From positions 248,001 to 312,000 of the forward strand of contig JAIXUD010000022.1 in assembly GCA_027483645.1 (NCBI GenBank): DNA of 64,000 nucleotides. Reading direction: 5' to 3'. This stretch comes from Sphingobacteriales bacterium. GTDB taxonomy: Bacteria; Bacteroidota; Bacteroidia; Chitinophagales; CAIOSU01. A program made the position numbers and the translations under genes. Shown here in pieces: positions 53,911-55,166 of this stretch (the stretch's first letter is position 1; each line of letters begins with the position of its first letter). Below the pieces are notes generated by a model. That model saw only the letters and a list, made by a program, of their open reading frames with translations, did not search any database and was not told where the DNA came from.

Positions 53911-53955
53911 GTGTGTTCAGCCACGCCTTAGGCGTGGAAGCCGTCCGAACACTTT
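53911..53955. repeat. REP-like element (variant/chimeric)
   Basis: gtgtgttcagccacgccttaggcgtggaagccgtccgaacac: shares gccgtccgaacac with the REPs below but has a different inner hairpin. Confidence 0.7.
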
Positions 53956-54047: not shown

Positions 54048-54078
54048 GTGTTCGGACGGCTCGCAGCCGTCTGACCAC
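54048..54078 (+). repeat. REP palindrome copy 1
   Basis: gtgttcggacggctcgcagccgtctgaccac. Confidence 0.9.
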
Positions 54079-54123: not shown

Positions 54124-54750
54124 ATGCAATTTACTGCTGATAATATCTATCACGTCTATAATAGAGGCAATAACAGCCAGCGTATCTTCTTTTACAGAAC
54201 CAATTACATTTACTTCATCAGGAAGATTAGGGAGTCATTGTTACCTGAATGTGAGATTTTAGCTTATTGTTTAATGCCCAACCATTATCACCTACTCATC
54301 AAACCAAACGCTCAAGGTTGCGAACAGCGGTCACCAAGTGGTCAGACGGCTGCGAGCCGTCCGAACACTCCTGCGCTGCAGTCCCTCTCCCACAAGATTG
54401 GCAATTTGCAAAGCTCTTACACCAGGGCTATTCAAAAACAAGAGGGAATTAAGGGTTCTCTGTTCCAACAAAAAACAAAAGCTAAGTTGCTCGAATTGAA
54501 TGCGTGGCCTGGTATGAATACTGCGGCCATTTGTATGCATTATATTCACCAGAACCCTCTAAAAGCAAGTTTAGTAAATCGCATGGAAGATTGGGAATAC
54601 TCTTCGTTTCCAGATTACGCTCAACTACGTAATGGTACCCTTTGCAATCAAAAATTAGCTTTTGAAGTAATGGGTCTTTCAAGTGAAACATTTACTTTAG
54701 ATAGCTATGCAGTAATGCGGGATGATGTTTTGGAGAAAGTACTGTTTTAA
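54124..54750 (+). CDS. REP-associated tyrosine transposase (RAYT, Y1_Tnp/IS200-like)
   Basis: 'NIYHVYNRGNNSQRIFF', 'CLMPNHYHLLIKP', 'YIHQNPLKASLVNRMEDWEYSSFPDY'; flanked by REPs. Confidence 0.92.
   Translation: MQFTADNIYHVYNRGNNSQRIFFYRTNYIYFIRKIRESLLPECEILAYCLMPNHYHLLIKPNAQGCEQRSPSGQTAASRPNTPALQSLSHKIGNLQSSYTRAIQKQEGIKGSLFQQKTKAKLLELNAWPGMNTAAICMHYIHQNPLKASLVNRMEDWEYSSFPDYAQLRNGTLCNQKLAFEVMGLSSETFTLDSYAVMRDDVLEKVLF
54338..54368 (-). repeat. REP palindrome copy 2, inverted and inside the RAYT coding sequence
   Basis: gtggtcagacggctgcgagccgtccgaacac, the exact reverse complement of the copies at 54048 and 54785. Confidence 0.92.
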
Positions 54751-54784
54751 TCTGATCGTTGGTTGGAGAACCTTCCCTGAAAAG

Positions 54785-54815
54785 TGTTCGGACGGCTCGC
54801 AGCCGTCTGACCACA
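54785..54815 (+). repeat. REP palindrome copy 3
   Basis: gtgttcggacggctcgcagccgtctgaccac. Confidence 0.9.
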
Positions 54816-54835
54816 CAAATGTTTGAACATAATTA

Positions 54836-55166
54836 TGGCTACCATCGACGATTTCCTGAAAATAGACATGCGCGTGGGCCGCGTGGTAGATGCGCAGCCC
54901 TTCCCAGAAGCGCGGAAGCCTGCTTATAAACTCACTATTGACTTTGGCGAGGAAATAGGCACCAAGCCACCAGTGCCCAAATAACCCACCACTACACGCC
55001 TGAAACGCTTATAGGCAAATTGCTTGTGGCGGTAATCAATTTCCCGCCAAGGCAGATTGGCCCATTTATTTCCGAAGTATTGGTGCTCGGCCTACCGGAT
55101 GCCGATGGGCATATTGTGCTGCTAGAACCCCAGCAAGATGTGCCAGTAGGTGGAAGAGTCCATTGA
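54836..55166 (+). pseudogene. csaA: csaA-like tRNA-binding-domain protein, disrupted by one frameshift
   Basis: [44 protein letters not shown] / frameshift near 54965-54975 / [64 protein letters not shown]. Confidence 0.88.

Follow-up and report, generated by a model that had tools for sequence, protein, structure and literature searches.

How does a REP come to lie in frame within the coding sequence of a transposase whose gene is flanked by the same REP, and is it kept there because it is used or just because it does no harm? The question is raised by a locus in the window, that is, the whole stretch of 64,000 nucleotides that was analysed (positions 248,001 to 312,000 of contig JAIXUD010000022.1, assembly GCA_027483645.1, Sphingobacteriales bacterium). 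The features of the locus, numbered within the window, are the following.

53913–53952, plus strand: degenerate or composite REP of family A, with the 3′ arm AGCCGTCCGAACAC intact and the 5′ arm replaced by a CCACGCCTTAGGCGTGG palindrome
54048–54078, minus strand: 5′ flanking REP of family A, 45 nt upstream of the RAYT start (31-mer match)
54124–54750, plus strand: predicted RAYT, a TnpAREP-like tyrosine transposase of 208 aa (ORF; matches to Y1_Tnp, REP_Tyr_transpos and 4ER8)
54283–54291, plus strand: HUH motif His54-Tyr-His56, invariant in the alignment
54338–54368, plus strand: internal REP of family A, residues 72–82 of the RAYT (31-mer match, fold, AlphaFold loop, CT edge)
54541–54543, plus strand: catalytic Tyr140 of the Y-IHQ-NP motif, invariant in the alignment
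54784–54814, minus strand: 3′ flanking REP of family A, 33 nt past the stop codon (31-mer match)

Judged from its sequence and its structural model, the host protein should be a REP-associated tyrosine transposase (RAYT). Its match to Y1_Tnp (PF01797; E 1.8e-4) has 22.1 bits, just below the cut-off of 23, and that to the NCBI family REP_Tyr_transpos (NF047646; E 8e-13) has 48.5 bits, well below the cut-off of 80. These shortfalls are a matter of the score threshold and not a biological feature; the fold, the motifs and the surrounding REPs all agree with the RAYT family. The structure of E. coli TnpAREP in complex with a REP (PDB 4ER8) is both the sole profile match to PDB (E 2.3e-7) and the best PDB fold match to the AlphaFold model (E 4.8e-7), whose mean pLDDT is 93. 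In an alignment of 57 sequences the RAYT keeps all 18 invariant columns, including His54, His56 and Tyr140, and the Y140..N144P145 motif is invariant. The protein is probably still working. With E. coli TnpAREP it has in common the fold, the HUH and Tyr residues, a bulged REP with a GT[AG]G foot, the CT edge and REPs around the gene, while the two proteins are about 16% identical in the structural alignment and the linker between HUH and Tyr is longer in the window RAYT. For E. coli TnpAREP, the literature consulted has no mention of an internal REP.

How good is the evidence that the internal element is a REP at all? The 31-mer at 54338–54368 on the plus strand (GTGGTCAGACGGCTGCGAGCCGTCCGAACAC) is identical at 31 of 31 positions to the reverse strand of 54048–54078 and of 54784–54814, and the identity between the internal and the flanking REPs reaches 32 nt. 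Beyond these three there is no other match within 3 mismatches in the window, and none to the 31-mer in 100 shuffles of the sequence. The ORF at 54124–54750 stays open across the element, which encodes 11 residues (72–82). The initial annotation, in which an exact inverted copy of the flanking REPs was read in frame within the RAYT, was thus right on both points. A chance palindrome is ruled out by the shuffles, together with the lack of a strong hairpin in all 585 codon-shuffled genes of the survey described below; an assembly chimera is ruled out as well, since the two halves of the gene each match its paralogs in frame (64%) and the contig is 500 kb long. As single-stranded DNA the element folds into a bulged hairpin (-9.9 kcal/mol, z -3.8) whose loop is 3 nt long and whose stem has internal mismatches. 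It retains the GTGG foot, of which 3 of 4 positions pair with the 3′ end ACAC of the family A REP, the bulged stem and the 3′ CT edge, formed by the T at 54369 directly after the REP. Such a T comes directly after the 3′ arm in 51 of the genome's 53 REPs, and known TnpAREP enzymes, which require both the GTGG foot and the 3′ CT, cut at this edge (PMC8266576). In its sequence, the internal REP has all the marks of a usable site.

The position of the REP in the protein and its absence from kin are informative on its origin. The REP-encoded peptide lies in a loop that AlphaFold places between the strand of residues 54–61 (beta-3, with the HUH motif) and the helix of residues 87–107 (helix C). Apart from the C-terminal tail, residues 71–80 are the sole weak stretch of the model, with mean pLDDT of about 65 as against more than 90 over most of the rest. 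In a tree of 107 RAYTs the window RAYT clusters, with support 98, with L011, L012 and L049, and the insert is found in none of these three. Peptide and palindrome are likewise missing from both paralogs, which are 64% identical to the window RAYT, and from L012 and L049, its nearest relatives. Because these lack it, the insert is not ancestral but a gain specific to this lineage. It had been suggested that close homologs be aligned to see whether the segment is missing there, which it is in all four, and no homolog was found with the same peptide in the absence of the palindrome. The added segment had been put at roughly 20 aa; the net gain is smaller, the linker being about 8 aa longer than in the paralogs and nearest relatives, which is less than a whole REP. 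Either part of the linker was lost or its length drifted, and since 31 nt is not a multiple of three, flanking bases or indels must have been involved. Five of the six reading frames of the family A REP contain no stop, so that its capture in frame is easy.

Our preferred reading is that the REP was inserted locally, most likely by the RAYT, and was kept because the loop is permissive; we give it a probability of roughly two in three. A family A REP would have been inserted through the action of the RAYT on the REPs beside its own gene, the RAYT being the presumed agent, and would have landed in the surface loop between beta-3 and helix C, where an in-frame addition is expected to be harmless. 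What would have allowed the palindrome to stay is that its translation is short and hydrophilic and that the catalytic core is intact; the insert itself would have no selected function. The absence from paralogs and nearest homologs, the loop position and the stop-free frames favour the tolerated insertion that was the first of the possibilities named in the initial annotation. Nunvar et al. (2010, PMC2817692) report a preference for new REPs to form close to a rayt gene.

The arrangement of REPs around the gene and in the genome can be described in the same terms. Across the locus the REPs alternate in orientation (53913 plus, 54048 minus, 54338 plus, 54784 minus): the flanking REPs at 54048 and 54784 form a direct repeat and the internal REP between them points the other way, the degenerate REP at 53913–53952 is the outer partner of that at 54048, and the inverted outer pair of the RAYT is 53913 (degenerate) and 54784. 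The flanking and internal REPs thus resemble a BIME unit of two direct copies and an inverted one between, an arrangement described by Nunvar et al. (2010, PMC2817692). The 4.27 Mb genome has only eight family A copies when up to 3 mismatches are allowed, and the RAYT gene accounts for three of these. A broader search by the foot gave about 52 sites of three REP families, and each family pairs with one RAYT of this type in the genome:

REP family A: the window RAYT; 31 nt
REP family B: RAYT L010; about 78 nt, with a long loop
REP family C: RAYT L011; about 80 nt

Many of the copies are inverted pairs, and their feet are either GTG..CAC or GCG..CGC. In one copy the stem has changed on both sides, from GACGGCT/AGCCGTC to GATGGCT/AGCCATC, so that pairing is maintained. 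Nearly all REPs of the genome are intergenic. The others that lie under ORFs of at least 100 aa are in ORFs of 123–180 aa that span a REP pair or start at one; these ORFs are probably spurious, which leaves the copy in the RAYT as the only REP in a clear gene. A scan of viral contigs for the REP core gave no match. The presence in one genome (G000) of three RAYTs (loci L010 and L173 on C21, L011 and L175 on C22), each with its own REP family, the families having related feet and loops of 3 nt or of about 50 nt, offers a good set for the study of RAYT–REP specificity. A palindrome like GCCACGCCTTAGGCGTGG is found within or beside REPs of two families (53913–53952 and G000:C10:340119, L245), as if one repeat had been inserted into another.

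Is the window RAYT alone in this? Among 117 RAYTs surveyed, at least 13, the window one included, have a palindrome 5–22 aa after the HUH motif, and a strong hairpin is present in 15 of 117 compared with 0 of the 585 codon-shuffled genes. An in-frame REP in the linker is not unusual among RAYTs. At least seven different REP sequences account for the linker palindromes, which occur in Bacteroidota and Chloroflexi, and L212 adds an eighth; several of these RAYTs have another copy 6–80 bp past the stop codon. Two RAYTs of Chloroflexi (L092 and L118) have different REPs at one position, as a clean insert of 13 aa. Within genus g96 some RAYTs have a linker REP of one of two types and others a decayed copy or none; the REPs that are there resemble those in the flanks or genome of the species concerned. 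One genome (G067) has five copies of its RAYT's REP in all, three of which are at the RAYT in 5′, internal and 3′ positions, and the same three-site layout is seen in another (G334). By parsimony, at least nine gains or losses of the linker REP occurred on the RAYT tree. Two further sites, one ahead of the tyrosine and the other close to the C-terminus, are occupied less often than the linker. The coding sequences of L212 (G304) and of L184 and L210 (G360) each contain two or three REPs from two REP families, and L204 has a near-perfect palindrome of 45 nt (GTTTCCAGTGATACTATGACTAGGAGTCATAGTATCACTGGAAAC) 55 aa after the HUH motif, in the loop before the tyrosine, with no copy in the flanks. FGGKPMQE linkers (L056, L059, L068 and relatives) were rejected as REP-derived, since their linker DNA has no palindrome and its matches to the flanks are of chance length only.

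The initial annotation also named autoregulation of the mRNA or transposase and self-cleavage of the gene. Could the internal REP be a selected self-target instead, so that the RAYT binds the hairpin of its own mRNA, or nicks its own gene when it is single-stranded in replication, and thereby limits its own expression or copy number? The exact identity with the flanking REPs and the retained foot, stem and edge of known TnpAREP sites would suit such a role, as would the enrichment in RAYT genes: with the same loop limit, hairpins are found in 14 of 117 RAYTs and in 4 of 303 neighbouring genes (p about 1e-5), about a tenfold difference, although the neighbours are ORF predictions with hairpins at gene ends left out and the RAYTs are not independent. 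With nine changes set against 4 of 303 neighbours, p is still 0.002. This enrichment could mean function rather than tolerance. In one clade, moreover, the REP DNA is conserved beyond the divergence of the gene: in four RAYTs with a common CATCCGATG REP, the segment is 82–93% identical as against 58–68% for the remaining gene, which exceeds what neutral decay predicts. Re-insertion, conversion or selection could account for it, and repeated insertion of the same REP could do so equally. Against a self-target stands the lack of an internal REP in most RAYTs, including both paralogs and the nearest relatives, as does the linker REP of genus g96, which turns over, decays and changes type. The orientation of linker REPs relative to the gene and to the flanking copies is not constant, and further loops of the same protein are also occupied. 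Within a 91-nt mRNA context, moreover, the internal REP folds no better than shuffles do (z -0.44). The turnover of REPs, the several permissive loops and the unrelated peptides argue against a fixed function, and we consider the self-target unlikely. A broader form of the idea, that RAYT genes repeatedly gain and keep a cognate REP as a brake that is in use, the transposase recognising its own gene or mRNA, and that this evolved many times with different REPs, we regard as rather unlikely too.

It is also conceivable that the RAYT had no catalytic part in it and that the insert arose when the alternating REPs, as a BIME-like array, recombined or underwent gene conversion with one another. The alternation across the locus is as in BIMEs, and the three full copies at the RAYT are identical while those elsewhere in the genome differ by 2–3 nt. 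However, conversion requires a resident homologous sequence in the linker, which the paralogs do not have, and by itself it does not explain why REPs of differing types occupy the same loop in many lineages. This origin is quite improbable. That the protein gains a function from the REP-encoded peptide, for instance contact with DNA or a partner, would suit the site between HUH and Tyr but is highly improbable, as these peptides differ completely between lineages and an equivalent extension was modelled by Quentin et al. as directed away from the DNA and the active site (PMC6006769).

An in-frame REP in a RAYT gene is not an undescribed phenomenon. Quentin et al. (2018, PMC6006769) reported in-frame REP insertions in subclass 2.4 tnpAREP genes, as a rule between HuH and Y, and modelled this region as a peripheral extension; some members of the small subclasses 2.7 and 2.8 also carry an internal REP. 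The window RAYT is a new example and not a new kind. With TnpAY1 subclass 2.4 (RAYT group 4 of Bertels) it shares an in-frame REP like those of its flanks, placed between HuH and Y in the variable beta3–alphaC insertion, and subclass 2.4 cases come from Bacteroidetes and Cyanobacteria, the window RAYT being likewise of Bacteroidota. Its motifs, on the other hand, are NHYH, FQ at the W position, YIHQNP and an invariant tail S160-S161, unlike the NH[IFV]H, WQ, YIxNNP and lack of an SS tail that mark subclass 2.4 (Table 1 of PMC6006769), and its REP ends in ACAC and probably has no true double foot; a long or double-footed REP is among the marks of subclass 2.4. Judged by the published motifs, the set is closer to 2.1.2/2.6 than to 2.4, and the window RAYT is provisionally kept out of 2.4. 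Should it indeed belong elsewhere, the phenomenon would extend further than was stated in 2018. In-frame REPs in unrelated genes are known as well (Di Nocera et al., 2013, PMC3733652): the GTAG/CGTC REPs in uvrA, recB and dnaE2 are also read through and thought harmless in flexible parts, but the window REP sits in the transposase of its own REP family.

Whether RAYTs move REPs is a question still debated mostly on the basis of anatomy and in vitro work. What is added here is a documented lineage-specific case of an internal REP, a motif set closer to 2.1.2/2.6 than to 2.4, a comparison of RAYTs with the genes next to them, and the finding that congeners differ in REP type. A loop in which REPs have lodged on several independent occasions, in genomes that have few of them, records local insertions much as fossils would, and these can be dated by comparing congeners that have the insert with those that lack it. 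Loci with an internal REP also provide a ready test of transposase regulation through a target inside its own gene. At the window locus, a frameshift interrupts the first gene beyond the 3′ REP (54835–55166), which codes for a CsaA/tRNA-binding protein: profile positions to about 44 are matched in one frame and positions 50–113 in another, and the gene is either a pseudogene or the product of a sequencing error.
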